64,000 nt of DNA from Marilutibacter penaei (GTDB lineage Bacteria > Pseudomonadota > Gammaproteobacteria > Xanthomonadales > Xanthomonadaceae): assembly GCF_014145395.1 (NCBI RefSeq), contig NZ_JACHTE010000002.1:62001-126000 (forward strand), read 5' to 3'. Below are positions 9,001 through 45,932 of the stretch, piece after piece. The notes below the pieces were generated by a model. That model had not been told where the DNA came from. It saw only the letters and a program-made list of their open reading frames with translations, and ran no database searches. Both the position numbers and the translations under genes were made by a program. Numbering within the stretch: position 1 is the first letter of the stretch; every line of letters begins with the position of its first letter.

Positions 9001-12000
9001 GCCAGCTATTTCCAGAAGCACGTCAGCGCGCACCCGGACCGGATCGAACGACTGGGCGCGTTCCAGGTGATGCTGGACAACGAGAAGGACTACATCGCCA
9101 CCCGGGTGGCCCACAAGCTCGACCTGGACGGCCCGGCGATCAGCGTGCATACCGCGTGTTCGACCTCGCTGGTGGCGATCGCGCAGGCGGTGGACAGCCT
9201 GCGGGCAGGACGTTGCGACATGGCGCTGGCCGGCGGGGTGTCGATCACCTGCCCGCCGAACAGCGGCTACCGCTACCAGGAGGGGGCGATGCTGTCCCCG
9301 GACGGCCACACCCGCACGTTCGATGCCGATGCCAAGGGCACCGTGTTCGGCGATGGCGCCGCGGTGGTGCTGTTGCGCCGGCTGGACGAAGCGCTGGCGG
9401 ATGGAGACCCGATCCATGCGGTGATCCGCGGGGTGGCGCTGAACAACGACGGGGCGGACAAGGCCAGCTTCACCGCGCCCAGTGCCGCCGCGCAGGCGGC
9501 GGTGGTCGCGATGGCGCACGAGGATGCCGGGGTCGACCCCCGCAGCATCGGTTACGTGGAAGCCCACGGCACGGCGACCCCGCTGGGCGACCCCATCGAG
9601 GTGGAGGGCCTCACCCGGGCCTTCCGGCGGGGCACGCGCGACACCGGCTTCTGCCGCATCGGTTCGCTGAAGAGCAACATGGGACATCTGCTGATCGCGG
9701 CGGGTGCGGCCGGTGTGATCAAGACCGCCCTGTCGCTGGAGCACGAGTGCATCCCGCCGACCCTCCATTACGTCCAGCCCAATCCCGCGATCGACTTCGC
9801 GTCATCCCCCTTCGTGGTCAACGCGTCGGCGACGCCATGGCCGCGCGAAGGAACACCGCGCCGCGCCGGCGTGAGTTCCTTCGGGGTCGGGGGGACCAAC
9901 GCGCACGTGGTCCTGGAGGAAGCGCCCGGACGCGCTGCCAGCGTTCGGCAGGAAGGCCCGGCCGTGCTGCCGGTCTCCGCGCGCACGCCCGCGGCCCTCG
10001 CCGAAGTGGCGCGCCGCCTCGCCGGCCACCTCGAGCGCCACCCTGACACCGTACTTGAAGACGTGGCGTGGACCTTGTCAAAGGGCCGCAAGGCGTTTGC
10101 CCATCGCGCCAGCGTGGTGGCGGACGACGTGCCGGCGGCCATCGCGGCGCTCGGGGATGCTTCGTTCCTCGGGCGGATCGCGCGGGGACGGCCTGCGCGC
10201 AGCCAACAGGTGGTGCTGATGTTCCCCGGGCAGGGTGCGACGTATCCGCGCATGGGGGCGGGCCTGTATGCCGCCGACCGCACCTGCCGGGACGCGCTGG
10301 ACGCCTGTGCGTCCGCGCTGGGGGATGCGTTCGGCTTCGACCTGCTGGAGCGTCTCCACAGCGAAGACCCCGATGCGTTGATCCCGACCTCCATCATGCA
10401 GCCGGCCACGTTTGCGCTCGAGTACGCGCTGGCGAAGTGGTGGCAGGGCCGCGGACTCGAGCCGGTGGCGATGATCGGCCACAGCGTGGGCGAGTTCGTC
10501 GCGGCAACCCTGGCCGGCGTGTTCTCGCTGGAAGCGGGCATCCGCCTGGTGGCCGAACGTGGCCGCCTGATGCAGGCGCAGCCACCGGGCGGCATGCTGT
10601 CGGTGCGCGCGGACTGGGGCACGCTGGCGTCGCGCTTGCCCGCCGGAGTGTCGATGGCCGCCGAAAACGCCCCCGCGGCCTGCGTGGTGGCCGGTCCGTC
10701 GGATGCGCTGTCGGCGTTCCAGGACGTTCTGGAAGGCGAGGGGGTCGCATGCCGCATGCTGCACACCTCGCATGCCTTCCACTCCGCGATGATGGTCCCC
10801 GCGGTGGAGCCGTTCCGCGCCGCCGTCGAAGCGGCGGGCCCGCGTGCGCCGGAAGCACGGATCGTCTCCACCACGACGGGCGACTGGCTCGATCCCGAAC
10901 GGGCACGCGATCCCGCGTACTGGGCCTCGCACCTCCGGGAGCCGGTGCGGTTCTCGAAGGCGCTCCTCACCGCGCTGGAAATGCCCGGCCTCGCATTGCT
11001 TGAAGCCGGGCCGCGCGGCAACCTCTCCAGCCTGGCGCGCCTGCATCCCCAGGTCGGCAAGGCCCACGTACCGGTGATCGCGAGCCTGGCGGACAGTCCG
11101 GAGCGCGAGACCTCGCTGCTGCACCAGGCATTCGGTGACCTGTGGAGCTGCGGAATCGCGTTGGAACCGTCGACGCTGGACACGCGCACGGCGCGCCGCC
11201 GTGTGTGCCTGCCGACCTACCCCTTCGAACGCCAGCGCTACTGGCTCGATGCACCCCCTGCACAACGGAGCGTGCTGCCCCACCCGGCGGCCGCGATCTC
11301 CCGGGAGAACCCCATGCCGCACCTTGCACCGGCCACCGATGCACCGGCCGCCCCCACGCCCGTCGCCGATCGCATTCCCGGTCTCGTCGCGCGCCTGCGC
11401 GACGTCATCGAAGACGTGTCGGGCATCGACATGGCGGATGCGGAAGCGGATGCGAACTTCATCGAGCTCGGTCTCGACAGCCTGGTGTTGACCCAGGTCG
11501 CACTGCAGGTGCAGAAGTCGTTCGGAACCCGGGTGACGTTCCGCCAGTTGATGAGCGATGCGTCCAGTCTCTCGGCGCTGGCCGGTCATCTGGACGCGCA
11601 ACTGCCGCCCGAGCCGGTGACTGCGCCGGTGGCAGCGCCAGCCGCGCCCGTGGCGCCGGCCGCCATTGCCACGGTGGCAACCGCGCCGGCCCAGGCGTCT
11701 TTGGCGCCCACCGTTCCTGCGTTCCAGGCGGGGGCGGGAGGAGATGCCCTCCAGCAGCTCATCGCCCAGCAGATGCAGTTGATGTCGCAGCAGCTGGCGC
11801 TGCTGGGCGGGCAGGGTTCGATGGGCGCCATGGCGGCCCCGACGATCGCGGTCCCGGCGCCGCCGTCCGGCATGGCTGCGGTGTCGGCCCCGGCGGTGGT
11901 CGCGCCCGCCGCACCGAACGAGGGCGAGGCAGCGGTGGCCATCGGGGCCTCCGACATCGACGACGAGGCCGCCCTTGCCCATACCCGCTACGACCTGAAA

Positions 12001-13533
12001 AAGGCCTTCGGTGCGATCGCACGCATCGACAGCACGGGCCAGCTGGTCCTGGAAGATTCGCAACGAACGAGCCTCTCCCGATTCATCGACCGCTACCAGG
12101 CGAGGACCGCGAAGTCGAAGGCCTACACCCGGAAGCATCGCGCCCACATGGCCGACCCGAGGGTCGTCAACGGGTTCCGCCCGCTGACCAAGGAGATCTG
12201 CTACCAGATCGTCATCGAGCGCTCCCATGGCGCACGCATGTGGGACCTGGACGGCAACGAATACGTCGATGCACTGAACGGCTTCGGCATGAGCCTGTTC
12301 GGATGGCAGCCCGACTTCATCATGGACGCGGTGCGCACACAGCTGGACCGGGGCATCGACATCGGGCCCCAGCATCCGCTGGCAGGCGAGGTGGCCGGCA
12401 TGATCTGCGAGCTGACCGGCCATGACCGCGCGGCCCTGTGCAACACCGGCTCCGAAGCCGTGCTGGGCGCGCTGCGCATCGCCCGCACGGTGACCGGTCG
12501 GGAGACGCTGGTCGTGTTCAACGGTTCCTACCACGGCATCATCGATGAAGTGATCGTGCGCGGGACGCGCAAGCTGAAGTCGGTGCCTGCCGCGCCCGGT
12601 ATCCTGCGCAACACCGCCGAGCACGTGCTGGTGCTCGACTACGGGACGCCCGAGGCCATGCAGGTGATCCGCGAGCGCGCGCACGAGATCGCGGCGGTGC
12701 TGGTCGAGCCGGTCCAGAGCCGCCGCCCCGATTTCCGGCCGGTGGAGTTCCTCAGGGAACTGCGACAGGTGACCGCCGAGGCAGGCGCCGCGCTGATCTT
12801 CGACGAAGTCATCACCGGGTTCCGTGCGCATCCCGGTGGCACCCAGGCCATGTTCGGGGTCAAGGCGGATATCGCGACGTACGGCAAGGTGGTGGGCGGT
12901 GGCCAGCCGATCGGCGCCATCGCCGGGAAGCGCGAGTTCATGGATGCACTCGACGGCGGCGCCTGGGACTTCGGCGACGATTCGGTGCCGACGGTCGGGG
13001 TGACCTACTTCGCCGGCACGTTCGTCCGCCATCCCATGGCGTTGGCGGCCGCGCATGCGGTGCTGGTGGAAATGAAGCGGCAGGGCCCGGCGCTGCAGGA
13101 AGACCTCAACGCACGCATGGACGCGATGGCCGACGAGATCAACCGGTTCTGCCGTGCACGGGGCGCACCGGTCGAGGTCAGGCACTTCGCCTCGGTCTGG
13201 AAGACGTTCTTCCTGGAGGACCATCCGTTGCAGGACCTGCTGTTCGCCATGATGCGGACCCGGGGCGTGCACATCCTCGACAATTTCCCGTGTTTCCTCA
13301 CCACGGCCCACGGTGAGGCGGAGCGGCGCGCGATCGTCGATGCCTTCAAGGCGTCCATCGTGGAACTGCAGGAGGCCGGCTTCCTTCCCGGTACGGTGAC
13401 GTCCGGCGTGCCGGCCATGGATGCGGCGGCGCCGCCCGTCCCGGGTGCCCGCATCGGGCGTGATCCGGAAGGCCGACCTGCCTGGTACCTCGCCGACCCG
13501 GACCGTCCCGACCAGTACGTGAAGGTGGGGTAA
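6064..13533 (+). CDS. Hybrid NRPS-PKS: (half C)-A-PCP-KS-AT-ACP-aminotransferase
   Basis: First assembly-line protein, 2489 residues. In order: a C-terminal half condensation domain without HHxxxDG (1-230); an adenylation domain (240-757; YTSGSTG near 400, LSPNGKLDR at its end); a PCP (Ser804); a ketosynthase (860-1285; Cys1032 in TACSTS, His1168, His1208); a malonyl-type acyltransferase (1383-1665; GHSVGEF with Ser1474, HAFHS); an ACP (Ser1806); an Ala/Gln/Pro-rich linker; and a class III PLP aminotransferase (2030-2425; Lys2275) of the kind seen in mycosubtilin/iturin synthases. There is no ketoreductase. Expected chemistry: an amino acid is loaded, extended with malonate, and the beta-keto group is converted to a beta-amine. 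GTG 6064 is the first start codon after an in-frame stop and has GGAG 8 bases upstream. Active-site residues are intact in every complete domain. Confidence 0.93.
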   Translation: MKALQKQQEHWRAQVAAAPARLDLPLGPGRAGRPLRAVVPLAASHGAALEATARRAGVSIEAAWLALWATFMAGMADADAVQVARIQARTDASMPLQPLVLRFGGGEGEGGEPVGTAARALADADAHAMPQAAFDALFPELPVWQLGFHFGDPDDPDSAAWVARCDLACVVGSGEGTPACELVVSADADDVAMPARWAALFATWLEQALDTPQMAWRALPLMAPEAAQALCRRGHVARDVPDCTVHALFEAQVDRTPDATAVAGDTHALTYRSLDEAANRLARQLRLLGAGPDARVAVFLDRTPDLLVAVLAILKAGAAYVPLDPGYPPERLRLTLGDSAPTAVISGTAMAEGWAGLADAANGVPVLRLDDPAAPWIALPATRIDAGETGVSPAHLAYVLYTSGSTGTPKGVAMPHAPLVNLIQWQTRQPGHEGPLRTLQFAALGFDVAFQEMFATLCTGGELHMIDADSRLSGERLHAFVRARRIERLFLPYFALQMLAEAHANAGEDPQGFALREVVTAGEPLRIEPRIRAFFDALPECRLHNHYGPTESHVVTAFALEGAPADWPLLPSIGRPIDNARVYLLDRRGQPVVDGMVGELYLAGPVLARGYLGRDELSAERFLDDPFDNDPAARMYRTGDLARWRADGALEFLGRRDFQVKIRGFRVELGEVEAQVMACDGVREAGVTVREDVPGLKRLVAYFTPIDPERPVDIDAMRTRLANRLPEHMVPAAYVPLPAMPLSPNGKLDRGKLPSPGQARPDWIGEFHPPVGEVESQLCALFSEALGLEGLGRHDSFFTLGGTSLLALRLLQAIRKAGLGEVAVTALFAAPTPAGVARVLAGDPATPALRTRARRRGDDDVPIAIIAMTGRFPGANDVESFWENLCEGRDSIRFFTPDELDPSIPLSERDDPDYVAARGVIEGHDCFDAAFFGISPREAELMDPQQRLFLELCWECMERGGHAPGRHEASVGVYAGMYNASYFQKHVSAHPDRIERLGAFQVMLDNEKDYIATRVAHKLDLDGPAISVHTACSTSLVAIAQAVDSLRAGRCDMALAGGVSITCPPNSGYRYQEGAMLSPDGHTRTFDADAKGTVFGDGAAVVLLRRLDEALADGDPIHAVIRGVALNNDGADKASFTAPSAAAQAAVVAMAHEDAGVDPRSIGYVEAHGTATPLGDPIEVEGLTRAFRRGTRDTGFCRIGSLKSNMGHLLIAAGAAGVIKTALSLEHECIPPTLHYVQPNPAIDFASSPFVVNASATPWPREGTPRRAGVSSFGVGGTNAHVVLEEAPGRAASVRQEGPAVLPVSARTPAALAEVARRLAGHLERHPDTVLEDVAWTLSKGRKAFAHRASVVADDVPAAIAALGDASFLGRIARGRPARSQQVVLMFPGQGATYPRMGAGLYAADRTCRDALDACASALGDAFGFDLLERLHSEDPDALIPTSIMQPATFALEYALAKWWQGRGLEPVAMIGHSVGEFVAATLAGVFSLEAGIRLVAERGRLMQAQPPGGMLSVRADWGTLASRLPAGVSMAAENAPAACVVAGPSDALSAFQDVLEGEGVACRMLHTSHAFHSAMMVPAVEPFRAAVEAAGPRAPEARIVSTTTGDWLDPERARDPAYWASHLREPVRFSKALLTALEMPGLALLEAGPRGNLSSLARLHPQVGKAHVPVIASLADSPERETSLLHQAFGDLWSCGIALEPSTLDTRTARRRVCLPTYPFERQRYWLDAPPAQRSVLPHPAAAISRENPMPHLAPATDAPAAPTPVADRIPGLVARLRDVIEDVSGIDMADAEADANFIELGLDSLVLTQVALQVQKSFGTRVTFRQLMSDASSLSALAGHLDAQLPPEPVTAPVAAPAAPVAPAAIATVATAPAQASLAPTVPAFQAGAGGDALQQLIAQQMQLMSQQLALLGGQGSMGAMAAPTIAVPAPPSGMAAVSAPAVVAPAAPNEGEAAVAIGASDIDDEAALAHTRYDLKKAFGAIARIDSTGQLVLEDSQRTSLSRFIDRYQARTAKSKAYTRKHRAHMADPRVVNGFRPLTKEICYQIVIERSHGARMWDLDGNEYVDALNGFGMSLFGWQPDFIMDAVRTQLDRGIDIGPQHPLAGEVAGMICELTGHDRAALCNTGSEAVLGALRIARTVTGRETLVVFNGSYHGIIDEVIVRGTRKLKSVPAAPGILRNTAEHVLVLDYGTPEAMQVIRERAHEIAAVLVEPVQSRRPDFRPVEFLRELRQVTAEAGAALIFDEVITGFRAHPGGTQAMFGVKADIATYGKVVGGGQPIGAIAGKREFMDALDGGAWDFGDDSVPTVGVTYFAGTFVRHPMALAAAHAVLVEMKRQGPALQEDLNARMDAMADEINRFCRARGAPVEVRHFASVWKTFFLEDHPLQDLLFAMMRTRGVHILDNFPCFLTTAHGEAERRAIVDAFKASIVELQEAGFLPGTVTSGVPAMDAAAPPVPGARIGRDPEGRPAWYLADPDRPDQYVKVG

Positions 13534-13539
13534 GGGGGC

Positions 13540-16500
13540 ATGGCGACATCCGCGATACGACAGGACGGTGCGCGACGTACGGTTGACTACGATCCCTTCG
13601 CCGGTGGCGTACTGGAACGGGTGGTGCCGACCACCGAGCCGCAACGCGAGATCTGGCTGGCGGACCGTCTGGGGCGCGAGGCTTCGCTGGCCTACAACGA
13701 GTCGGTGTCGCTGCTCCTCGAAGGCCCGCTGGAGCGGGAGGCGCTGTGCCGTGCGGTCCAGCAGTTGCAGGCCCGGCATGACGCCTTGCGGGCGAACTTC
13801 GGTCCCGATGGCGAAACGCTGTGCGTGGGCGAGGCGAACGCCTCGATGCCCGTGCAGGTGCACGACTTTGGGCTGCTGGAGGGCACGCAACGCGACGCGG
13901 CCGTGGAAGCCCGTCTGCGTGCGAGCGTCGAAACGCCCTTCGAGCTCCTCGATGGCACCCTGTTCAGGGCCGAGTTGCTGTGCCTCTCGGAGCGCCGCCA
14001 CCGGCTGCTGCTGAGCGCACACCACATCGTCTGCGACGGCTGGTCGTGGTGGGTCATGGTCCGCGAGCTGGGCGCCCTGTATGCGCGCGAGTGCGGGCTG
14101 GACCCGGGCTGGTTGCCCGAGCCGGATTCGTTCGCCGATCATGCCTGCGCACTGGCGGCCGGGCGGTCGGCCGAACAGGAGGCGGACGAGGCCTACTGGC
14201 GCACGCGCTTCCAGACGCTGCCCGAGCCGCTCGACCTGCCACTCGACCGGCCCAGGCCTGCACGGCGCACCTCGAGCGCGCGCCGGCACGACCACGTGGT
14301 CGACGCCTCCCTCGTCAGTGCCATCCGGCAGTTCGGCGCGCGCCGGGGCTGCAGCCTGTTCGGCACCCTCCTGGCCGGCTTTGCAGGCCTGATGGCCCGA
14401 TTGACCGCCCAGGACGACATCGTGGTCGGCATACCGGCCGCGGGCCAGTCGGTGGAAGGGCAGGACCAGCTCGTGGGCCATTGCGTGCACGTGTTGCCGT
14501 TGCGCTTCCGGGCGGATCCTGATGCCCCGTTCGAGACGGTACTGGCGCATGCGCAGGAGGTCCTGCTGGATGCGCTCGACCACCCCCGGCTGACCTTCGG
14601 CAGCCTCCTCAAGCACCTGAGGGTCGAGCGTGACCCGGCGCGACTGCCGCTGGTCAACGTGATGTTCAACATCGACCAGGCGCTCGACCAGGAAAGCAAC
14701 CGCTTCCCGGGGCTGGACCTCGCGTTCGAGACCAACCCGCGCGCCCACGAAACCTTCGAGCTGTCGGTCAACGCCGTCCAGGTCGACGGTGCGCTGCGCC
14801 TGGAGTGCCAATACAACACCGACCTGTTCGACCACGCCACCATCGAACGCTGGATGCGGGCCTACGAAACCCTGCTGCGGGCCGCCATCGAGCAGCCGAC
14901 CCGGCCCTTCGGCGAGCTGGGCCTCGTGGATGCAGGGGGATGGCAGGCGCTGCAGGCATTGCAGCCCGCGCCGGTGCAGTACGATCCCACGCAGCCGGCG
15001 CACGCGTTCTTCGAAGCATGCTGCGATGCCGCGCCGGACCGCATCGCCGCGTGCCACGGCGATGCACGCCTCACGTATGCGCAGCTGGACGCGCGCGCGA
15101 ACCGCATTGCGCACCTGCTGCGCGAGAACGGCGTGCACGCGGGCAACCTGGTGGGCCTCGGGCTGCAGCGCGGCACCGACATGCTCGCGACAGTCCTGGG
15201 CATCTGGAAGGCAGGCGCCGGCTACGTGCCGCTCGACCCCGCCTTCCCCGTGGATCGCCTGACCTACATGGCGGGCGATGCGGGCCTCGCGGCCCTGGTG
15301 ACGCACGAAGCCTCGGCCGGCCTGTTCGACCTGCGCGGCCGGCCGGTGCTGGTGCTGGACCAGCTGGAGCCTACGCTCCAGGCCATGCCGACCGCGCGGC
15401 CGCGACTCGAGCCCGGCAGCCTGCAACCGGACTCCGTCGCCTACGTCATCTATACCTCCGGTTCGACGGGGCGGCCGAAAGGCGTCCAGGTACCGCACCG
15501 GGCCGTTGCCAACCTGGTCGTCGCCATGCAGCGCGAGCCCGGGCTTGTCGCCGACGACCGCATGCTGGCACTGACCACGCTGTCCTTCGACATCGCAGTC
15601 CTGGAGCTGCTGCTGCCGCTGAGCGTCGGCGCACGCGTCGTCATCGCCGGCCGCGAGGTCGCGGTCGATGGCGCAGCGATCGCGGCGTTGATCGAGTCCG
15701 CCGGCGTGACCTGCATGCAGGGCACGCCCGCTACCTTTCGGCTCCTGCTCGCGGCGGGTTGGGCGGGGCGGCCGGGGCTGAAGGCATTGTGCTGCGGCGA
15801 ACCGCTGCCGGTGGACCTGGCGCGCGACCTGCTGCCCCGGTGCGACTCCCTGTGGAACATGTACGGGCCCACGGAGACCACCGTCTACTCCACCGGGACG
15901 CGCGTCGAGCCCGATGCCGCGGGTCACCTCGATATCCACATCGGCACGCCGATCGCCAACACCCGCGTCTGGATCCTGGATGCACGGGGGCAAGCCTGCC
16001 CGTTGGGCGTGCCTGGCGAAATCTGCATCGCCGGCGAAGGCGTGACCCTGGGATACCTCGGACGCCCCGAGCTGACCGCGGATCGCTTCATCGAAGCCAT
16101 CTCGCTGCCGGTGCGGCCGGATGGACGGCCGGAGCAGGTCTACCGCACCGGTGACCGTGGACGCTGGCGACAGGATGGCCGGATCGAGCACATGGGCCGG
16201 CTGGACCACCAGGTGAAGGTGCGCGGTTACCGCATCGAGCTGGGGGAGATCGAAAGCGTCCTCGCCGCGCACCCCGCGGTGGCGCGCTGCGTGGTGATCG
16301 TGCGCGAGGACCGCAAGGACGATGCGCGGCTGGTGGCCTACGTGGTGCCGCGGGAAGACGCACGGCCGGACGAGGGGGCGTTGCTGGCGCACCTGCGCCA
16401 GGCAGTGCCCGAGTACATGCTGCCGCAGCATTTCGTCATGCTCGATGGCCTGCCCTTGTTGCCGAACGGCAAGCTGGACCGTGGGCAGTTGCCGGCCCCG

Positions 16501-19500
16501 GTGACCGGCGGGCATGCCAAACTGCACGAGGCACGTCCCCCGGCGACCGCCGTCGAAGCGCACCTCGCCGCCACCATGGCGGACGTCCTGGGCGTCGAGG
16601 CCATCGGTGTGGACGATGACTTCTTCGCCAGCGGTGGGCATTCGCTGCTCGCCGCCCAGCTGGTGGCCCGGTTGAATCGCGAACTCGGCGCGAACCTGCA
16701 CTTGAGGACCTTGTTCGACGCGCCGACCGTGGCTCGGCTCGCAATGCATGTCGAATCCACCGGGGATGACGGCCTGGCGGCACGACCGCCCATCCAACGG
16801 CTGCCGGAGGATGCCCGCGTTCCCCTTTCGCCGATGCAGGAGCGGCTCTGGGTACTCGAGCAGATGCAGCCCGGGCGGGTGACCTACAACACGCCGTCGG
16901 CCCACCGGCTGCGCGGGCCACTCGATCACGCCGCCTTCGAGCGCGCGTTCCAGGCCATGGTGTGTCGACAGGCCACGCTCCGCACGGTGGTCGGCGAGGA
17001 CGAGCAGGGCACGTTCCAGCGCGTTCGCGATGACATCGACGCGGCGCTCCCCGTCCAGGACCTGCGCAGCCTCCCCGAGGGCGACCGGGAAACCGAACTG
17101 CGTGCCGCAATGGAACGGATGATCGCCGAGCCCTTCGACCTCGAAGCCGGCCCGCTGTTCCGTGCACGCCTGTTCCGGCTGGACGACGAAGACCACGTGC
17201 TGTTCTTCATGACGCACCACATCATCTGGGATGGCTGGTCTTTCGACGTTTTCTATACCGAGATGGCCACGCTTTACCCCGCGTTCCTGCGCGGCGAACG
17301 CTCGCCCTTGCCCGCACTGGATGTTGATTACAGGGACTTCACCGCGTGGTATCGCGCATGGCTGGATGGCGATGAACTCAAGCGCCAGCTCGACTTCTGG
17401 TCGGACCACCTTGCCGGTCATGCGGCACCCCTTCAGCTGCCGCTGGACACGCCCCGGCCATCCGAGGCCAGCGGCGCGGGCGGTACCGAATGGATGGCCA
17501 TCGGGCGCGACACCACCGACCGCGCACGTGCGCTGGCGACGCGGAACGACGCGACCCTGTTCATGGCCCTGCTGACGGCGTACTACCTGTTGCTGCACCG
17601 CTTGAGCGGCCAGGACGACCTGGTCGTCGGCCTGCCGGTCCGCAATCGCGAAAGCGAGGCGCTGGAGCCCATCATGGGCTTCTTCGTCAATATGCTGCCG
17701 ACCCGCGTGCAGGTCGATCCGGATGCGTCGTTCCTGGACCTGCTGCGCCAGGTGCGGCGTGCGGTACTCGACGCCTTCTCCCATCCCGACGTGCCATTCG
17801 ACCGCTTGGTCCGGGCGCTGGAGGCCCCGCGCGATCCCAGCATCGCCCCCGTGTACCAGGCCAGTTTCTCGTTCCAGGACGTGCGGGCCCGCCGTACCCA
17901 TTGGGGCGACCTGGAGCACGAACACCTGCTGGTGTTCCAGAAAGCCAGCTCCGGCGACCTGGGCTTGTGGTTCCTCGAGCATGGCGAGGGCCTGTCCGGG
18001 GTGATGACCTACAACACGGACGTCCTCGGTGCCGACAGCGCACGGTGCTTCAGCCAGCGCTACTCCCGGTTGCTGGAGGCGGTGCTCGAGCATCCCGACC
18101 GGCCATTGGCTGCGCTCGACATTCGCTGCGACGCCGATATCGACGTGCCGCGACAGGCCAATGCAACGCGCCGGGCCCTGCCGTCCCCGGCCACGCTCGG
18201 GTCCCTGTTGGATTCGTCGCTGGCCGTGCATGGCGCGCGTGTCGCACTCGACCACGCGGGCCAATCCTTGACGCATTCCGCCCTGCACGAACGCAGCCTG
18301 CGCATCGCCGCGTGCATGCGGGAGGAGGGCGTGCGTGCCGGGGACCGGGTCGGCATCTGCATGGCGCGCGGACCGGACATGCTGGCCAGCATGCTGGGGG
18401 CGTTGCGCATCGGCGCCGCATACGTGCCCATGGATCCCGACTACCCGACCGACCGCCTGCAGTTCATGGTGGACGACGCTGGCCTGCGGCTTGTCCTGGG
18501 CCAGCGCGGATCGTGCGACGACCTCAAGCTCGGCGCGGCACGCCGGATCGACGTGGATGCATCGGGGGCACGGCTGGCGGCGATCGCCCCGCTCGCTCCC
18601 GGGACGGACGAGGCCTCACCGGAATCCGTCGCGTACGTCATCTATACGTCCGGTTCGACCGGTAAGCCGAAAGGCGTGCAGGTGCCGCACCGCGCCGTCG
18701 TGAACTTCCTGCTTTCGATGCAGCGGGTACCCGGCCTGGACAGCGATGACGTGCTGGTGGCGGTGACCACCACCTCCTTCGACATCGCCGTGCTTGAGCT
18801 GTTCCTGCCCCTGCTGGCGGGTGCCCGCATCGTGCTGGCCGATCGCGACACGGTGCTGGACGACGTCGAGCTGGGCCAGCTGATCGCGGCCAGTGGCGCG
18901 ACCGTCATGCAGGCCACGCCCTCGACCTGGCGGATGCTGGTCGAAACCGGCTGGCAGGCGCCTGTGGGTTTCCGCGCGTTGTGCGGGGGCGAGCCGCTGG
19001 CGCCGGACCTGGCCGAGTCGCTGGTCGGAATGTGCGCCGAGGTCTGGAACATGTACGGTCCCACCGAAACCACGGTGTGGTCGACGTGTTGCCGGGTGGA
19101 AGCGGATGCACCCATCCATATCGGCAGGCCCATCGACAACACCACCGTGCATGTGCTCGACCCATCGGGCCGGCCCTGCGCCGTGGGGTGTTCCGGCGAG
19201 ATCTGCATCGGTGGCGCAGGCGTCTCCCTGGGCTACCTCGACCGCCCCGCGCTGACAGCGGAACGCTTCGTGCCGGATACGTTCGCGGACGGGGATGGCA
19301 TCCAGGGGCCGGGCCTGCTGTATCGCACGGGCGACCGCGGCCGTTGGCGGCACGACGGCACGCTCGAACACCAGGGGCGTTTCGACCATCAGGTCAAGTT
19401 GCGTGGCCACCGCATCGAACTGGGGGAGATCGAGGCCGCGTTGCAGGCGCACCCTGCGATCGTACGTTCCGTGGTGACGACGCACGAAGCGCGGCCCGGT

Positions 19501-20157
19501 GATGTGCGGCTGGTGGCGTACGTGGTGCCGCAGGCCGATGCGCCCGCAACGTCGGCGCTGCAGGGGCATCTTGCCGCGCGTCTGCCCGCCTACATGCTGC
19601 CGCAACGGATCGTCGTGCTGGACACGCTGCCCTTGCTCCCGAACGGGAAGATCGACCGCAATGCCCTGCCGCTGCCGGGCGGAGTGCTGACGATCGATGC
19701 TCCCGACGGCCCTGACATCCCTGACATCCCTGACGTCCCTGACGCACTGAGGGAGGATCCCCCACGCCCCTCCGGAACGGGTATCCCGGCATCCGGTCTG
19801 GCGTCCGATACACCGCCGCGAATCCGTTATCTGGTGCAGGTATGGGAGGAACTGCTCGAGGTGCGCGTACTCCCCACCGATAACTTCTTCGATCTGGGGG
19901 GGCACTCGATGCTGGCGGTGAAGATGGCCCATCGCGTCTCGCGCGATACCGGCGTACGGCTCAAGCTGATGAAACTGACACAATTGAGCCTGGCGCAGGT
20001 GGCCGAGGCCCTGCCCGATGCCACCGACGTGTATGGCGTGGCGGCCTCCGGCAGTGACGCGCACGGTCCGGCTCCTGGTGCGCCGCCTTCGCCCTGGCAC
20101 CGTCGCGCACGGAGACGCCTGGCGCGCTGGATCGGCGGCGAAGGCGAGTCGACGTGA
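13540..20157 (+). CDS. Nonribosomal peptide synthetase: C-A-PCP-C-A-PCP
   Basis: Second assembly-line protein, 2205 residues. C1 (20-450) has HHIVCDG at 161-167 and an N-terminal TEPQREIW block resembling condensation domains that follow aminotransferase modules. A2 spans about 488-986, with PCP Ser1035. C2 spans about 1097-1530, with its HHIIWDG motif beginning at 1226. A3 spans about 1553-2047, with PCP Ser2123. The chain ends about 80 residues after the last PCP in a basic tail, with no thioesterase, reductase or terminal condensation domain. It starts 6 bases after the preceding stop behind AAGGGGG and overlaps the next gene as GTGA, so the genes are translationally coupled. By hand alignment A2 and A3 have glycine-like specificity residues. 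It should add two residues to the beta-amino acyl chain made upstream. Confidence 0.93.
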   Translation: MATSAIRQDGARRTVDYDPFAGGVLERVVPTTEPQREIWLADRLGREASLAYNESVSLLLEGPLEREALCRAVQQLQARHDALRANFGPDGETLCVGEANASMPVQVHDFGLLEGTQRDAAVEARLRASVETPFELLDGTLFRAELLCLSERRHRLLLSAHHIVCDGWSWWVMVRELGALYARECGLDPGWLPEPDSFADHACALAAGRSAEQEADEAYWRTRFQTLPEPLDLPLDRPRPARRTSSARRHDHVVDASLVSAIRQFGARRGCSLFGTLLAGFAGLMARLTAQDDIVVGIPAAGQSVEGQDQLVGHCVHVLPLRFRADPDAPFETVLAHAQEVLLDALDHPRLTFGSLLKHLRVERDPARLPLVNVMFNIDQALDQESNRFPGLDLAFETNPRAHETFELSVNAVQVDGALRLECQYNTDLFDHATIERWMRAYETLLRAAIEQPTRPFGELGLVDAGGWQALQALQPAPVQYDPTQPAHAFFEACCDAAPDRIAACHGDARLTYAQLDARANRIAHLLRENGVHAGNLVGLGLQRGTDMLATVLGIWKAGAGYVPLDPAFPVDRLTYMAGDAGLAALVTHEASAGLFDLRGRPVLVLDQLEPTLQAMPTARPRLEPGSLQPDSVAYVIYTSGSTGRPKGVQVPHRAVANLVVAMQREPGLVADDRMLALTTLSFDIAVLELLLPLSVGARVVIAGREVAVDGAAIAALIESAGVTCMQGTPATFRLLLAAGWAGRPGLKALCCGEPLPVDLARDLLPRCDSLWNMYGPTETTVYSTGTRVEPDAAGHLDIHIGTPIANTRVWILDARGQACPLGVPGEICIAGEGVTLGYLGRPELTADRFIEAISLPVRPDGRPEQVYRTGDRGRWRQDGRIEHMGRLDHQVKVRGYRIELGEIESVLAAHPAVARCVVIVREDRKDDARLVAYVVPREDARPDEGALLAHLRQAVPEYMLPQHFVMLDGLPLLPNGKLDRGQLPAPVTGGHAKLHEARPPATAVEAHLAATMADVLGVEAIGVDDDFFASGGHSLLAAQLVARLNRELGANLHLRTLFDAPTVARLAMHVESTGDDGLAARPPIQRLPEDARVPLSPMQERLWVLEQMQPGRVTYNTPSAHRLRGPLDHAAFERAFQAMVCRQATLRTVVGEDEQGTFQRVRDDIDAALPVQDLRSLPEGDRETELRAAMERMIAEPFDLEAGPLFRARLFRLDDEDHVLFFMTHHIIWDGWSFDVFYTEMATLYPAFLRGERSPLPALDVDYRDFTAWYRAWLDGDELKRQLDFWSDHLAGHAAPLQLPLDTPRPSEASGAGGTEWMAIGRDTTDRARALATRNDATLFMALLTAYYLLLHRLSGQDDLVVGLPVRNRESEALEPIMGFFVNMLPTRVQVDPDASFLDLLRQVRRAVLDAFSHPDVPFDRLVRALEAPRDPSIAPVYQASFSFQDVRARRTHWGDLEHEHLLVFQKASSGDLGLWFLEHGEGLSGVMTYNTDVLGADSARCFSQRYSRLLEAVLEHPDRPLAALDIRCDADIDVPRQANATRRALPSPATLGSLLDSSLAVHGARVALDHAGQSLTHSALHERSLRIAACMREEGVRAGDRVGICMARGPDMLASMLGALRIGAAYVPMDPDYPTDRLQFMVDDAGLRLVLGQRGSCDDLKLGAARRIDVDASGARLAAIAPLAPGTDEASPESVAYVIYTSGSTGKPKGVQVPHRAVVNFLLSMQRVPGLDSDDVLVAVTTTSFDIAVLELFLPLLAGARIVLADRDTVLDDVELGQLIAASGATVMQATPSTWRMLVETGWQAPVGFRALCGGEPLAPDLAESLVGMCAEVWNMYGPTETTVWSTCCRVEADAPIHIGRPIDNTTVHVLDPSGRPCAVGCSGEICIGGAGVSLGYLDRPALTAERFVPDTFADGDGIQGPGLLYRTGDRGRWRHDGTLEHQGRFDHQVKLRGHRIELGEIEAALQAHPAIVRSVVTTHEARPGDVRLVAYVVPQADAPATSALQGHLAARLPAYMLPQRIVVLDTLPLLPNGKIDRNALPLPGGVLTIDAPDGPDIPDIPDVPDALREDPPRPSGTGIPASGLASDTPPRIRYLVQVWEELLEVRVLPTDNFFDLGGHSMLAVKMAHRVSRDTGVRLKLMKLTQLSLAQVAEALPDATDVYGVAASGSDAHGPAPGAPPSPWHRRARRRLARWIGGEGEST
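19711..19743 (+). repeat. 9-bp tandem repeat in NRPS linker
   Basis: CCTGACATC is repeated about 3.7 times, the third copy reading CCTGACGTC. It encodes an in-frame Pro-Asp-Ile/Val run between A3 and the last PCP, so changes in copy number would keep the reading frame and only alter linker length. Confidence 0.85.
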
Positions 20158-20969
20158 CCGAGCCGTGCTACTTCGGTCCCCGGGGACGGGAGCTCTTCGG
20201 TCTTCTGCACCATGGCGCGACAGCTGACGGAGACAGCCCGCAGGTAACGCGTCCGGCCTGGCTGGTGTGTCCACCGCTGTTGCAGGATGCGATCCGCAGC
20301 CACCGTGCCCTTTGGACGCTGTCGCGGTCGCTGGCGGGCGCGGGCCATGACGTGATGCATTTCGACTGGTACGGGACCGGCGATTCGTCCGGCGACCTCG
20401 AGGACCTCACGCTGGCCGGCATGTCCCGCGACCTGGATGCGGGCATGGCCGCATTGGGGCGGGGTGCGTCGGCGCGCCCCCGGGTACTGGCACTCCGCAG
20501 TGCCGCGTTGCCCGTGCTCGCCTGGGTACGGCAGCGGGGCATGCCCGTCGACCTCGTGTTGTGGCAGCCCTGTCTGGACGGCGCCGGACAGGTCGCGGAC
20601 TGGCGCGCCCAACAGGTGGACCAGTTGACCGTGGCGGGGCGTTATCCCTATGGCGCGCCGGCCGGTGCCGACGATGACCTGATGGGATTCAGGGTGGCGC
20701 GGGCGTGGCTGGACAGTCTTGCTGCGCTCGATTTCCGTGCCTGGACGTTGCCGGAGGGAAGTCGCCTGTTGGTGGCTGCCTGGCAACGGGATGTGGTGCT
20801 CGATGCCTGGCTCGAGCGCCAGCGCGGGGCGGGCATCGAGGTCGATGTCCTGGTGTTCGAGGACGACGAAGCACCGCCCGTGGATGCCCCCCGCCTGTTC
20901 GAAGCGCAACTGTTCCCCCGGCAGAGCGTGGCCGCGCTGTCGAGTCGCATGGCCGGGCGGGCCGCATGA
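20154..20969 (+). CDS. Exosortase A system-associated hydrolase 2-like alpha/beta hydrolase
   Basis: A 271-residue alpha/beta-fold protein resembling ortholog 2 of the two hydrolases that accompany XrtA exopolysaccharide loci. Visible features are the early strand ending in PPLLQDAIRSHR, the DWYGTGDSSGD turn and a degenerate nucleophile elbow: where GxSxG is expected there is ALRSAAL, with Arg at the nucleophile position. Catalysis by a classical Ser triad is therefore doubtful, and a partner or carrier-binding role is possible. The GTG start overlaps the NRPS stop as GTGA, and the end overlaps the next gene as ATGA. Its place directly after an NRPS lacking a thioesterase suggests a part in product release or transfer. 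Confidence 0.75.
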   Translation: MTEPCYFGPRGRELFGLLHHGATADGDSPQVTRPAWLVCPPLLQDAIRSHRALWTLSRSLAGAGHDVMHFDWYGTGDSSGDLEDLTLAGMSRDLDAGMAALGRGASARPRVLALRSAALPVLAWVRQRGMPVDLVLWQPCLDGAGQVADWRAQQVDQLTVAGRYPYGAPAGADDDLMGFRVARAWLDSLAALDFRAWTLPEGSRLLVAAWQRDVVLDAWLERQRGAGIEVDVLVFEDDEAPPVDAPRLFEAQLFPRQSVAALSSRMAGRAA

Positions 20970-21877
20970 ACGCGCAATTGGCGGTCGAGGACGTTATCGC
21001 GGGTCCGGATGCCTGCGATGGATCCCGCCGAAGCGACAATGCCCTTGGGGAAAGCGCGTACCGCTTCGGCCCGGGACTCGTGGGCGTGTTGCACCGGCCC
21101 TGCCACGAGGACGGGCACGTGCAGGACGTCGCGGTGATCCTGCTGAATGCGGGGCTGGTCCGTCGCATCGGACCTTACCGGCAGTACGTATTGCTCGCGC
21201 GCCTGCTGGCCCGCGCCGGGTTCACCGTGCTGCGTTACGACCAGTCCGGTCTGGGCGACAGTGCCTCGGCTTCCCGCGAAGCGGGCGACAGGCGACTCCG
21301 CGAGGTCCGCGCGGCGATGACGCTCGTGGGTGCGGAGACCGGGCACATGCGCTTCGTACTCGGGGGACTGTGTTCCGGCGCAGACGATGCCTTCCATATC
21401 GCCGTGCAGGACTCCCGGGTCGTGGGCACGTTGCTGCTCGATGGCCCGGGGTACAAGACAGCGGGCTTCTGGTGGCGGCACCTCCTGCCCCGCGTGTTCA
21501 GCCCAAGGCGCTGGCGCGCGTTGCTCGGCCATGTCGGCAAGTTGCGTACCCATGAGCCGGGCCTGCTCGACTATCGGGACTTCCCGCCCCAGGCGGATGC
21601 GCGCCTGCAACTCCAATCGCTGGTGGAGCGGGGCGTGCGCATGCTGTTCCTGTACACCTCGGGCAGCTATTACTACGTCAACCATCGCAGCCAGCTGGCC
21701 GCCGCCTTGGGCGACGCGGCGCGCGCGCCCGCCGTCACGGTGGAGTTCTGGCGCGACTGCGACCACACGTTCTACCTGCAGCAGGACCGGACCCGGATGT
21801 TCGCCTACACGCTGGGGTGGATGCAGGATGCCTTTGGGACGCGCAAGGGCCGCCCCGGGCCAACGCCCATCCCATGA
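20966..21877 (+). CDS. Exosortase A system-associated hydrolase 1-like, Cys-nucleophile hydrolase
   Basis: A 303-residue alpha/beta hydrolase of the XrtA ortholog 1 type. The nucleophile elbow GGLCSG places Cys136 where Ser is usual, and CDHTF supplies His267 next to Asp266. Early motifs VGVLHRP and YRQYVLLARLLA match the family. A cysteine elbow is often seen in thioester-transferring members of the fold, so this is the best candidate for off-loading the peptide from the last PCP. The ATG start overlaps the previous stop, and the reading frame extends further upstream only inside the previous gene. It overlaps the flippase gene by ATGA. Assignment to the family is by eye; the acceptor is unknown. 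Confidence 0.78.
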   Translation: MNAQLAVEDVIAGPDACDGSRRSDNALGESAYRFGPGLVGVLHRPCHEDGHVQDVAVILLNAGLVRRIGPYRQYVLLARLLARAGFTVLRYDQSGLGDSASASREAGDRRLREVRAAMTLVGAETGHMRFVLGGLCSGADDAFHIAVQDSRVVGTLLLDGPGYKTAGFWWRHLLPRVFSPRRWRALLGHVGKLRTHEPGLLDYRDFPPQADARLQLQSLVERGVRMLFLYTSGSYYYVNHRSQLAAALGDAARAPAVTVEFWRDCDHTFYLQQDRTRMFAYTLGWMQDAFGTRKGRPGPTPIP

Positions 21878-23373
21878 ACGGCGATGCCAAGGGCGTAGCG
21901 ACCCACTACCGCCGCTATGCCACCGGGAACGCCCTGACGCTGCTGGCGGGCCTCGTTTCGTTCCCGCTGTTGACCCGCCTGCTCGACAACACCCAGTACG
22001 GGATGTTCGGATACTACGGCGCGTGGATCCTGATGGCCGTGGCGGTCGGCAAGTTCGGCGCGCAGCATGCCATCCTGCGTTTCTATCCCCACGACCGGGA
22101 TCCCCAGCGCCTCAGGGCCTTCGCGACGAACCTGTTCTACGCGCCGCTCGGCCTCGCCTTCGTGCTGTGGGTCGTCGTCGTGGCCGGAATGCTGCTGGTC
22201 GACGCGGTCAGCGGGCAACGGCAAAGTGCGATGTTCTGGCTGGTGGTCGCGATGGCGCCGCTGGCGATATTCGCCAGCCTGGTCGATACCGTGCAGAAGG
22301 TCACCGAGCGCTCCCGGCTGGTCATGTACCTGCGGATCGGCGGCCGCTGGCTCGAACTGCTGCTGATGCTGGGTGCCGTGCTGCTGGTGCAGGCGAGTGC
22401 AGTGGCGGCCTATTCCGGGAAGCTTGCGACCTGCATCCTCCTCGCCGTGGCGTATGTCGTGTGGATGCGTCGCCACCTGCAGTTCTCGCGGCAGGCGCTC
22501 GACCTGTCGGAGACGCGCGCGGCCCTGATGTTCGGCATGCCGATGGCCCTGAGCGAGGTGATTTCGGTCACGCTGGTGTCGCTCGACCGATGGATGATCA
22601 AGGACATCACCGGCGACTTCGCGCTGGTCGGCGTATACAGCATCGGTTCGTCGCTGGCGATGCAGGTCAGCCTGTTCATGAACGCTTCGGTGTTCGAGGC
22701 GTTCCTGCCTACCGCCAACCGCATCTACAGCCTGGAAGGCGACGCAGCCCTTCGCGAACTGAAGGCGCGCGTCCTGATGCCGATGACCTATGCGGCCGTC
22801 GGCATCGCTGTCCTGCTCGGGAGTTTCGGGAGCGACCTCATCCTGGTCGCCAGCGGCGCGGACAAGGTGGCATCCGGTCCGGTATTCGCGCTGCTCGCGG
22901 TGGTGTGCGTACTCCAGCCGGTGCTGCTGCTGGCCGGTTACGGCCTGTTGCTCGAAAAGAGGTCGAGCACAGTGCTGCTGCTGGTGTTCGCCAGCCTGCT
23001 GGTGAACGGTGTCTTGAACTGGCTGTGGATACCGAGGTTCGGCGTCATGGGAGCCGCGTGGGCGACGGTGTTCAGTTCGATGGCACTGGGCATCGCCCAT
23101 TGCGCGGTCGTGAAGCGGTCGCTGTTGAAGCTGCCGGACCTGCGGACCGTCGGGACCGCCCTCCTGGCGGCCACGGCGGTAGTGCTCTTCGATCGCTGGC
23201 TGATCCAGCGCGGTGTGCCCGCGGGCTGGATCCGCTTCCTGTTCGGCGGCGGAGCGGCCGGGCTGATCTACCTGGCGTGCGTGTTGTGCGTCGACGCTCG
23301 TTTGAGAGTTCTGGTGAAGGGCGCGGCCAAGTCGGCCTTTGGATTCAATAGTTCGTCACGCGCGCAGGCTTGA
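21874..23373 (+). CDS. Wzx-like polysaccharide flippase (MOP superfamily)
   Basis: Inner-membrane protein of 499 residues with about 12-14 hydrophobic helices, starting with a YRRYATGNALTLL segment and charged loops (YPHDRDPQR) typical of Wzx/RfbX transporters that flip undecaprenyl-linked repeat units to the periplasm. ATG 21874 overlaps the hydrolase stop, so it is translationally coupled to the NRPS-hydrolase operon rather than placed with the Wzy/Wzz/Wza genes. That placement links the peptide pathway to export of a lipid-linked saccharide, or of the peptide itself. The MOP family assignment is good; the substrate is inferred. Confidence 0.85.
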   Translation: MNGDAKGVATHYRRYATGNALTLLAGLVSFPLLTRLLDNTQYGMFGYYGAWILMAVAVGKFGAQHAILRFYPHDRDPQRLRAFATNLFYAPLGLAFVLWVVVVAGMLLVDAVSGQRQSAMFWLVVAMAPLAIFASLVDTVQKVTERSRLVMYLRIGGRWLELLLMLGAVLLVQASAVAAYSGKLATCILLAVAYVVWMRRHLQFSRQALDLSETRAALMFGMPMALSEVISVTLVSLDRWMIKDITGDFALVGVYSIGSSLAMQVSLFMNASVFEAFLPTANRIYSLEGDAALRELKARVLMPMTYAAVGIAVLLGSFGSDLILVASGADKVASGPVFALLAVVCVLQPVLLLAGYGLLLEKRSSTVLLLVFASLLVNGVLNWLWIPRFGVMGAAWATVFSSMALGIAHCAVVKRSLLKLPDLRTVGTALLAATAVVLFDRWLIQRGVPAGWIRFLFGGGAAGLIYLACVLCVDARLRVLVKGAAKSAFGFNSSSRAQA

Positions 23374-26641: not shown

Positions 26642-26699
26642 GCGGGTGACTCCGGATTCAGGGGGATGCCGCGGTCGGGGGATGCGGCGGATCCAATTG

Positions 26700-26716
26700 T
26701 GGACAAAAATTGTCCA
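26700..26716. promoter_or_regulatory. Palindrome upstream of the first beta-helix gene
   Basis: TGGACAA-AAA-TTGTCCA is a perfect 7-bp inverted repeat with a 3-base centre, 59 bases before the proposed start of the beta-helix gene, in an AT-richer stretch. It has the look of a repressor or activator site. No matching regulator is encoded nearby. Confidence 0.5.
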
Positions 26717-26733
26717 GCTTCTGCACATTGGGG

Positions 26734-26744
26734 CACAGATACGG
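26734..26744 (-). promoter_or_regulatory. Shared upstream motif, copy 1
   Basis: CACAGATACGG on the + strand, with CACATGC 6 bases further on. The same 11-mer, with CACATGC one base away, occurs upstream of the second beta-helix gene at 29621-29631. It lies about 93 bases before the proposed start, a position suited to regulation. Confidence 0.45.
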
Positions 26745-26809
26745 CAAATGCACATGCCTGAATGACATTCCCCCTTGTTCATGTGAAGAGTCATTCATTG
26801 TTCATTCAT

Positions 26810-26841: not shown

Positions 26842-26865
26842 GGGGGTGTTGCGGGTCCCAGGCAT

Positions 26866-29678: not shown

Positions 29679-31394
29679 TCATTTTTCTGAACCCGCGTTC
29701 AGTGCCTGGCGCCCGCGCGGTCGCTGCACCGCGCCGATATCCGGGGTGTCGGCAATGAACAGGCGTCCTTCAAGATCGAAGCGGTTCCCTTCACGGTCCG
29801 GCACGCCGGCGCCGAGCACCGGGCTGTCGCCCAGGGGCATCGGGTCGAACGCGTCGAACCCGGCATTCGCGAGTTTCGGATCCTCGCATCGACTGTCGCC
29901 GGGACACTGCCCGCCCTTCACGTGCCAGAACAGGTTGCCCGCGTAGCTCACGCGTGCCGGGGACTGGTGCGCATAGTGACCACAGGCAAGCTCCGGAGAC
30001 TGCCGCCAGTCGATCCGTCCCAGCAGGATGTTGTTGGCAAGGATCAGCTGGCTGGAAGGGTCGCCCCCCTCGCTGAGCACCAGGCAATCGCCTTCCCCGG
30101 TGATCGTGTTGTGGCGCAGCTCCGCCGGCTGGCCCTCCACCAGCCCGATCGACAGTGCGTTGCCCCGCGCGCGGCAGAGGTCGTCCGCCTGCATTCGCCC
30201 CTGGCCTTCGAAATACGCACAGTTGCCCACGACCACCGAACTCTCGATCAATGCGCGCCCCTGGGTCTTGACCTGGTTGCCCGCGTTGCCTTCCGCCCGC
30301 ACACGGCGGATCGTCACGGAACTGTCCGCACTGCCATCCATGTACAGCAGGTCGACGCCGTCGGACGTGTTGTGGTGGACGTGGCTGTCCTCGATCAGCC
30401 AGTGGCCGCCCGTGCGCGCCGTGCCGAGGCCATCGCCATAGCCGCCCGCGTTTTGGGCCCAGCACGCCCAGGGCGTGCCGTCGAGGGTCTCGCCGCAGCC
30501 GTTGAAGCCGATCTCGACGTGCCGCAGCACGATGTCGCCGCTGTTGGAGCTTCCGTCGCCGATGTCGCCGTCCCAGCCCGCCCAGCCGTTGGCTTGGATC
30601 CTGACGCGTTCGACGGTCCAGTCCGTGAGCCCGCCGGCGATGATGCCGCGATTCGCGAGGCCATGGATGTCGAGGTCGTGCAGCCAGACCTTGCGGGAAG
30701 CCGAAGCGCTGATGCCGGACGATGCCCACTCGCCGAACGGAGCGGCATCGCGTTCGCATTTCGCGGTCGGGTCCGCGTGGAACTCCACGCACGGACTGCC
30801 ATCCGTCAGGACCAGGTGGGCGACCTCAACGTTGGCGCTGCCATTGAGGTCCAACAGGTGGCTGACACGTTCGTGGCCGCGCAGGACGGGCGGACGCGCG
30901 GGATCCTGGCCGAGGATGCGGGTGGGGGTGCGGGCATCCGGTCCGCCCGGCACCGGCGCAAGGTGGCAATCCCAGGGGGCGTCGGCATAGCAGCGTCCCC
31001 CCAATGCCCCGGGCGCATGGACGCCGAGCGGATACGTGCCGGGTGCGACATAGAGCGTGTCCCCCCCCTTGATGCGCGCCTCTCCGGTCGACGGAAGCGC
31101 GTGGTGCAGCGAATTCCAGGCACAGGCCTGGCGTGTTCCCCGCCCCGGGTAGGGGGCATCGGCGGTGCCGGTGCACTGGTCCGCCTCTCCACCGTCGACG
31201 CGGACGTAGTACGCCGTTCCATGCGGCGTCGAGTCGAAGGGGGGCGGGGGGACGGGAGGTGCCGGCGCGGCCGCGGGTACGCCCATCGCCGTCGCCGCCG
31301 GCGTGGACTCCGGATCCGCGTTCACGCAGCCCGCGGCCAGAAGCCCGCCGCCCAGCACCAGGATCCAGCGGAGGCGGCCGGCGGGCGCGATCAT
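29679..31394 (-). CDS. Parallel beta-helix lipoprotein
   Basis: Third paralogue, 571 residues, reduced to the beta-helix alone. The signal ends in LLAAGC, so Cys23 would be lipidated, and a Pro/Ala linker (about 30-55) leads to the YYVRVDGGE start of the helix. It keeps the Cys pairs and the DIHGLANRG and NGWAGWDGDI blocks of the other copies but is more diverged. It lacks the NEW3, Ig and FG-GAP domains. Its ATG overlaps the stop of the acetyltransferase gene, so the two are co-translated. Membrane anchoring suggests it acts in the periplasm or at the outer membrane on the nascent polymer, while the other two act outside. The fold is clear; the activity is not. Confidence 0.82.
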   Translation of the reverse strand: MIAPAGRLRWILVLGGGLLAAGCVNADPESTPAATAMGVPAAAPAPPVPPPPFDSTPHGTAYYVRVDGGEADQCTGTADAPYPGRGTRQACAWNSLHHALPSTGEARIKGGDTLYVAPGTYPLGVHAPGALGGRCYADAPWDCHLAPVPGGPDARTPTRILGQDPARPPVLRGHERVSHLLDLNGSANVEVAHLVLTDGSPCVEFHADPTAKCERDAAPFGEWASSGISASASRKVWLHDLDIHGLANRGIIAGGLTDWTVERVRIQANGWAGWDGDIGDGSSNSGDIVLRHVEIGFNGCGETLDGTPWACWAQNAGGYGDGLGTARTGGHWLIEDSHVHHNTSDGVDLLYMDGSADSSVTIRRVRAEGNAGNQVKTQGRALIESSVVVGNCAYFEGQGRMQADDLCRARGNALSIGLVEGQPAELRHNTITGEGDCLVLSEGGDPSSQLILANNILLGRIDWRQSPELACGHYAHQSPARVSYAGNLFWHVKGGQCPGDSRCEDPKLANAGFDAFDPMPLGDSPVLGAGVPDREGNRFDLEGRLFIADTPDIGAVQRPRGRQALNAGSEK

Positions 31395-31948
31395 GCGCCT
31401 TCGTCCTCCCGTGGGGGAAGGGGCGACATGCGGATGGCCGCGCCGACCACGCGCATGCGGTCGGGCACGTCCTTGGTGACCACCGTGTTGGCGCCGATGA
31501 CCACGCCATTGCCGATCCGTACGTCGCCGATCACCTTGGCACCGGTGCCGATGTAGACGTCGTCGCCGATGTCGGGCCAGCGGGTCGACTTTCCGGCGCC
31601 CTTGAAGCCCAGCGTCACGCCCTGGCCCACCGACAGGTTCCGGCCCGCATCGCCGTGCAGGAAGATGCCGCCGAAGTGCCCGATATAGAGCCCCGGGCCG
31701 ATGCGTGCGCTGGCGGGAATGGAGATTCCGAACAGGAGTTCGGTCGGGACATGGAGCAGGTGGTAAACGACCTTGAACGGCAGCGCGAACAGCCCGGGTC
31801 GAACGCTCCGTGTCCAGCGTCCATAGCGGTAGATGGCGACCGCGATGAAGCCGTGGGTCAGCGCCGCGCGCAGGCGCGCCAGCCGGGGCCCTCCGGCAAG
31901 GGCGACGCGGTGGTATCGCGCGAAGTCCTGGCGCAATGTTTCAAACAT
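31391..31948 (-). CDS. Hexapeptide-repeat O-acetyltransferase
   Basis: A 185-residue left-handed beta-helix enzyme of the serine acetyltransferase type, expected to add acetyl groups from acetyl-CoA to a sugar or amino sugar of the polysaccharide. Imperfect hexapeptide repeats run from about residue 90 (ARIGPGLYIGHFGG, VGQGVTLG, IGDDVYIGTGAKVIG, IGANTVV). I start it at ATG 31948 (MFETLRQ), with GGGGAG 9 bases upstream; extending further would run into the divergent ydcF promoter region. It overlaps the downstream beta-helix lipoprotein gene by four bases. The exact acceptor is unknown. Confidence 0.8.
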   Translation of the reverse strand: MFETLRQDFARYHRVALAGGPRLARLRAALTHGFIAVAIYRYGRWTRSVRPGLFALPFKVVYHLLHVPTELLFGISIPASARIGPGLYIGHFGGIFLHGDAGRNLSVGQGVTLGFKGAGKSTRWPDIGDDVYIGTGAKVIGDVRIGNGVVIGANTVVTKDVPDRMRVVGAAIRMSPLPPREDEGA

Positions 31949-32020
31949 GCGGTGATGCTCCCCGTGCCGGGTCGGGATGGATGCTGGGCATGAACGGTGC
32001 GGCATGCAAGACTGCCGGGC

Positions 32021-41860: not shown

Positions 41861-41870
41861 CCGGGCCTCC

Positions 41871-44832: not shown

Positions 44833-44880
44833 GGCGGGTATCCCCAGGGTGTCAGCAGAGAACAACGCAGATGAATGGAA

Positions 44881-44907
44881 GCCCCGGCCACGTCGGCGAG
44901 CCGGGAC
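44881..44907 (-). terminator. Intercistronic hairpin between epimerase and wza genes
   Basis: On the - strand GTCCCGGC and GCCGGGGC pair (8 bp, one U-G) around an 11-base loop, in the 82-base gap after the epimerase stop. TTCCATTC follows. It may partly terminate transcription, giving less export-gene than precursor-gene mRNA. Confidence 0.35.
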
Positions 44908-44914
44908 GGGGCAC

Positions 44915-45922: not shown

Positions 45923-45932
45923 GCGGGTGTCC

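Follow-up and report, generated by a model that had tools for sequence, protein, structure and literature searches.

An XrtA-type exopolysaccharide locus, recognised from NCBIfam and Pfam matches, occupies positions 4005-47222 of a 64,000-nucleotide stretch of Marilutibacter penaei DNA (positions 62,001 to 126,000 of NZ_JACHTE010000002.1; contig C9 of the 3.17 Mb genome), hereafter called the window. The locus encloses two large synthetases, and the second is followed directly by two alpha/beta-hydrolases, hyd2 and hyd1, the subject of this analysis. This nonribosomal peptide synthetase (NRPS 2; 13540..20157, forward strand) has the domain order condensation-adenylation-carrier twice over (C-A-T-C-A-T, from Pfam and the translation), with a carrier at its C-terminus and no thioesterase (TE). 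The terminal carrier (approximately 19774..20004, forward strand) was identified by Pfam, bears the motif DNFFDLGGHSMLAV and falls in a clade of hyd2-adjacent T domains.

Three genes follow on the same strand: hyd2 (20154..20969), a TIGR03101-like hydrolase by its NCBIfam match, in which the conserved Arg115 replaces the nucleophile; hyd1 (20966..21877), TIGR03100-like, for which NCBIfam, conservation and a structural model point to Cys136, His267 and a probable acid, Asp159; and a Wzx-type polysaccharide flippase (21874..23373; PF01943 above cut-off). Three 4-base overlaps can be read from the sequence: GTGA at 20154 between NRPS 2 and hyd2, ATGA at 20966 between hyd2 and hyd1, and ATGA at 21874 between hyd1 and the flippase gene. 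Because they are chained in this way, NRPS 2, hyd2, hyd1 and the flippase are very likely produced together.

Active sites and family of the two hydrolases

The best NCBIfam match of hyd1 was TIGR03100 (hydr1_PEP; 77.7 bits over residues 36-286, below the cut-off of 168.45), and that of hyd2 was TIGR03101 (hydr2_PEP; 55.3 bits over residues 32-149, below the cut-off of 202.75). Both families are 'hypothetical equivalogs', named as hydrolases 1 and 2, exosortase A system-associated. Judged by sequence, hyd1 and hyd2 of the window belong to a divergent branch of these families, and their odd residues are lineage-wide. They share with the canonical members the pairing, the hyd1 Cys and His (in all 15 canonical proteins) and the polysaccharide setting, and hyd2 shows the TIGR03101 trait of adjoining hydrolase 1 while having no Ser or Cys nucleophile, its relatives being all paired or fused. 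They differ in that the window carrier is an NRPS domain whereas the canonical carrier is a free acyl carrier protein (ACP), in the scores of both proteins below the cut-offs, in a triad acid that apparently lies after strand 6 rather than after strand 7, and in a genome without an exosortase (PF09721). A profile search covering 198 genomes of the bacterium's own taxonomic family recovered hyd1 in 50, one of them a weak match, and in 19 of 54 genera; in a single-protein scan of genome contigs, the homologs in the genus-mates Lysobacter spongiae and L. aestuarii were about 70% identical.

An earlier reading made from the sequence only had singled out Cys136 of hyd1 within GGLCSG, with D266/H267, and an Arg at the nucleophile position of hyd2 within ALRSAAL as odd active sites. 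All were confirmed, D266/H267 lying in RDCDHTF and the Arg being residue 115. Cys136, His267 and Arg115 were each present in 30/30 relatives of the same order. An alignment of 59 rows, comprising relatives, 15 canonical TIGR03100/TIGR03101 members and fused proteins, with one locus present twice, retained the hyd1 Cys and His in 59/59 rows each, and the hyd2 position was Arg in 53 and Gly in 6, never Ser or Cys. Likewise, all 36 proteins in which hyd2 and hyd1 are fused kept the Cys and the His (36/36 each), with Gly (23) or Arg (13) at the hyd2 elbow. The unusual residues are thus real, and their conservation across all rows rules them out as sequencing accidents; rather than being confined to this locus, they are family-wide in TIGR03100 and TIGR03101.

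In an AlphaFold2 model of hyd1 (mean predicted local distance difference test score, pLDDT, 87.2; predicted template modelling score, pTM, 0.85), Cys136 is placed at the nucleophile elbow between strand 130-135 and helix 137-148, and His267 follows strand 257-262. The aligned position in the nearest solved relatives is a Ser in a GLSMG elbow, so that the hyd1 family differs by a Ser to Cys replacement. D266 is present beside the invariant His267, but it was rejected as the likely triad acid, the aligned position being D, S, N or G in other members while every row has either D159 or D234 in complementary fashion. Canonical and fused hyd1 proteins combine Asn159 with an Asp that aligns to position 234 and follows strand 7 (27/27; canonical alone 15/15), whereas the window branch has Asp159, which directly follows strand 152-158, and lacks an acid at aligned 234 (32/32 rows). 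The triad of window hyd1 is therefore probably C136-H267-D159, as far as the alignment can tell. The reciprocal exchange fits a triad acid that migrated from its place behind strand 7 to one behind strand 6, and haloalkane dehalogenases use either of these two places. The same exchange was seen in branch members without an NRPS, indicating that it is not an adaptation to nonribosomal synthesis.

Carriers, fusions and the missing release domain

Only about 45 residues of NRPS 2 follow its last carrier, and Pfam placed no thioesterase domain there, in agreement with the sequence-only reading; no PF00975 domain was found by Pfam after the last carrier in NRPS 2, hyd2 or hyd1. A thioesterase elsewhere was looked for as well: a whole-genome search with PF00975 returned a sole match of 20.6 bits, below the cut-off of 26.4 and on another contig, other thioesterase families not being searched genome-wide. 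In 26 relatives with the pair, PF00975 matches were mostly located elsewhere, the exceptions being G050 and G061/G088, considered below.

The two hydrolases behave as a unit. A hyd2 neighbour stood beside every hyd1 in the first set of relatives, and of 249 genomes that sample the taxonomic order to which G341 belongs, 36 encode a single polypeptide in which hyd2 precedes hyd1. An AlphaFold2 model of one fused relative (578 residues; mean pLDDT 87.5, pTM 0.87) suggests one defined arrangement for the two lobes. In two loci (L127:9959-13267 and L129:7363-10695), flippase, hyd2 and hyd1 form a single open reading frame of about 1,100 residues. In another locus, L041, the NRPS reads on past its terminal T without a stop and ends in hyd2, which thus occupies the position of a thioesterase.

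A carrier domain typically precedes the pair. Across 27 same-order pairs, the distance from the end of the terminal NRPS T domain to the hyd2 domain is -1 to 224 bases, and in the 26 with a separate hyd2 gene only 7-45 residues follow the T domain, leaving no room for a thioesterase. In 13 of the 15 canonical XrtA loci, a free ACP (ELDSMAV-type; the one in L102 confirmed by PF00550) ends -54 to +89 bases from hyd2; the two exceptions are L104, with its ACP 3.3 kb away, and L116, in which no ACP was found. A maximum likelihood tree of carriers (87 domains, 82 columns) grouped 24 of the 27 rows for terminal T domains next to hyd2 in one clade (support 90/85; an inner group of 22 rows 98/96), separate from internal carriers and spanning C-A-T, C-T and T-TE-T modules together with the hyd2-fused carrier; many other forks are unresolved, and conclusions are limited to that clade. 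Carrier adjacency and this T-domain clade together imply that the pair keeps company with a dedicated carrier, either free or built into an NRPS.

Proposed function and its rivals

The sequence-only reading had also proposed that one active and one inactive hydrolase act together on a carrier-bound thioester, which would fit transfer to an amine or hydroxyl of a saccharide, and this interpretation is supported in part. The idea of a unit beside a carrier gained ground from the carrier adjacency, from the T-hyd2, hyd2-hyd1 and flippase fusions, and from the lack of a PF00975 match above cut-off in the genome. That the pair handles carrier-bound thioesters is well supported by these sequence relationships. 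With about even confidence, we further propose that hyd2 and hyd1 form an off-loading unit that passes the peptidyl chain via Cys136, most likely onto a saccharide. The pseudo-hydrolase hyd2 would in this organism probably heterodimerise with hyd1 and dock it on the terminal carrier of NRPS 2; docking, or shaping of the active site, is the role that enzyme families would suggest for such a partner. Cys136 of hyd1, with His267 and probably Asp159, would accept the peptidyl chain from the phosphopantetheine thioester to form an acyl-enzyme. The chain would then most likely be transferred to an amine or hydroxyl of a lipid-linked repeat unit of the polysaccharide, ahead of its flipping by the neighbouring Wzx protein, and the context allows that the acceptor is perhaps an amine freed by the deacetylases of the locus. 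Transfer to a saccharide, rather than hydrolysis, would be the best reading, given that the pair is constantly found in a polysaccharide setting and can be fused to a flippase.

Several findings weigh against this proposal. The nearest solved folds are ordinary serine esterases and lipases. Some relatives do possess a thioesterase, as G050 (locus L040) has a PF00975 domain inside its NRPS, upstream of the terminal T, while in G061/G088 the flippase is followed by a further synthetase of C-A-T-TE order. The G050 synthetase (L040:7966-15168) reads C-A-T-C-T-TE-T, with a further carrier between its PF00975 domain and hyd2-hyd1, and this terminal T, kept downstream of the TE, suggests that it serves the pair. 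The T domains of L056 (two of them) and L068, both from other families, lie outside the hyd2-adjacent clade, and the same-order pairs of L042-L046, in or near polysaccharide genes, have no carrier found within about 10 kb.

The main rival is that the pair is a stand-alone release thioesterase that hydrolyses or cyclises the peptide off its carrier, the product being exported or used apart from the polysaccharide. Carrier adjacency, fusions and an alpha/beta-hydrolase fold would be equally expected of such an enzyme, and the model matches include the thioesterases 1tht (myristoyl-ACP) and DcsB (7d78) among many esterases. However, even in distant groups the pair is accompanied by polysaccharide genes, also where there is no NRPS, and it is fused to the flippase in two loci; moreover, its elbow Cys is, by analogy only, that of an acyltransferase, polyhydroxyalkanoate synthase (PMC5509742). 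We consider release apart from the polysaccharide to be unlikely, although it is the competitor to be taken most seriously. It is improbable that the pair acts instead on the polysaccharide or on another acyl donor, as an esterase or acyltransferase of small groups whose place after the NRPS merely reflects operon organisation. The carrier-less L042-L046 pairs and the closest solved relatives, feruloyl-esterase-like enzymes and lipases, would be consistent with this function, but 40 loci or pairs, drawn from distant groups, have an ACP or T domain immediately upstream, in free, NRPS-domain and fused form, which makes operon order alone hard to accept. Stand-alone hydrolases next to assembly lines are often editing enzymes, and the pair could accordingly be a type II thioesterase that clears stalled carriers while another enzyme releases the chain. 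This has a similarly small probability, as the pair sits where the release domain is lacking, is joined to the terminal T in L041 and is matched by a terminal T clade of its own, and a PF00975 search of the genome gave no other release enzyme above cut-off.

Off-loading by hyd2 and hyd1 onto a saccharide would combine traits of several known systems. Like a terminal PF00975 thioesterase of an NRPS or polyketide synthase (PKS), the pair follows the last carrier, has an alpha/beta-hydrolase fold and, in L041, places hyd2 at the C-terminus; unlike it, the pair consists of two proteins, one without a nucleophile, with Cys in place of Ser and no PF00975 match. The Dlt system of Gram-positive bacteria brings D-alanine from the carrier DltC to teichoic acid by means of the membrane protein DltB and of DltD outside the cell. 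It resembles the window locus in having an adenylation enzyme, a carrier and amino-acid transfer to a surface polymer, but relies on DltB and DltD and has no hyd1 or hyd2. In the polyhydroxyalkanoate synthase PhaC, an alpha/beta-hydrolase that works as an acyltransferase, the triad is Cys-His-Asp and the elbow GxCxG (PMC5509742). The Cys of hyd1 stands in such an elbow, and PhaC uses its Cys for thioester acyl transfer; PhaC appears to belong to another sequence family, however, and is a dimer of like catalytic domains with coenzyme A thioester donors. No PhaC family appeared among Pfam and NCBIfam matches at an E-value of 0.001; the fold searches gave generic alpha/beta-hydrolases among the matches listed, and nothing is concluded from the lack of a PhaC or Pks13 row there. 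The thioesterase domain of Pks13 releases its product onto polyols, with a preference for trehalose (PMC9210659). The proposed action would be analogous, in that an alpha/beta-hydrolase would pass an acyl chain from its carrier to a sugar, although the Pks13 domain is a serine enzyme in a single chain.

These results provide a testable function for two families so far named only 'hydrolase, exosortase A system-associated', and link nonribosomal peptide synthesis with exopolysaccharide assembly. The literature searched yielded no paper addressing what the hydrolase pair does, nor any describing exopolysaccharide modified by an NRPS; the 2006 paper that deals with the PEP-CTERM system contains no mention of hydrolases or acyl carriers. 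By sequence, hyd1 and hyd2 would be a variant of a kind already known but functionally uncharacterised. If transfer occurs, polysaccharides of a class known from biofilms and flocs would bear peptide or acyl substituents added by a novel type of release enzyme, potentially of use for making peptide-polysaccharide conjugates. More tentatively, a two-lobed acyltransferase with one Cys lobe and one lobe lacking a nucleophile may be a widespread, unrecognised module of Proteobacteria that grafts acyl or peptidyl chains, bound to a dedicated free ACP or terminal NRPS domain, on lipid-linked exopolysaccharide units immediately before flipping, and many Xanthomonadaceae would then make peptide-decorated exopolysaccharides.

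The wider polysaccharide locus

The locus begins with an EpsB-type XrtA/PEP-CTERM-system glycosyltransferase (TIGR03013; 4005..5399, forward strand; 546 bits, cut-off 393), followed by the first synthetase, NRPS/PKS 1 (6064..13533, forward strand, GTG start), in which Pfam domains give the order A-T-KS-AT-T-aminotransferase (class III; KS, ketosynthase; AT, acyltransferase). Its adenylation domain matched the amino-acid adenylation family TIGR01733 above cut-off and TIGR03098 below cut-off. The domain order is that of beta-amino lipopeptide synthetases, but the A domain scores as amino-acid adenylation; the N-terminus resembles a truncated condensation domain, with no Pfam match for that stretch.

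The remaining XrtA-type exopolysaccharide genes lie on the reverse strand (31391..47222; NCBIfam, Pfam). They encode an acetyltransferase, PEP-CTERM-system glycosyltransferases, polysaccharide deacetylases, an O-antigen ligase-like protein, an outer-membrane protein, a tyrosine kinase, a chain-length protein, an export protein and the sugar-nucleotide enzymes sugar dehydrogenase and epimerase. Despite these XrtA-type genes, a PF09721 search of this genome gave no match to an exosortase, and a complete XrtA/PEP-CTERM sorting system was rejected on this ground.

Epimerases also occur in the L042-L046 loci, and L045 has a flippase and a GNAT-type protein in addition. Between the flippase and the reverse-strand genes of the window, three large minus-strand proteins (23411-31394) carry right-handed beta-helix, NEW3 or FG-GAP repeats, and relatives of the third are found near the hyd2/hyd1 pair in many related loci. 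A third alpha/beta-hydrolase (PF12146; 48512-49549, reverse strand) lies beyond galE, 27 kb from the pair.

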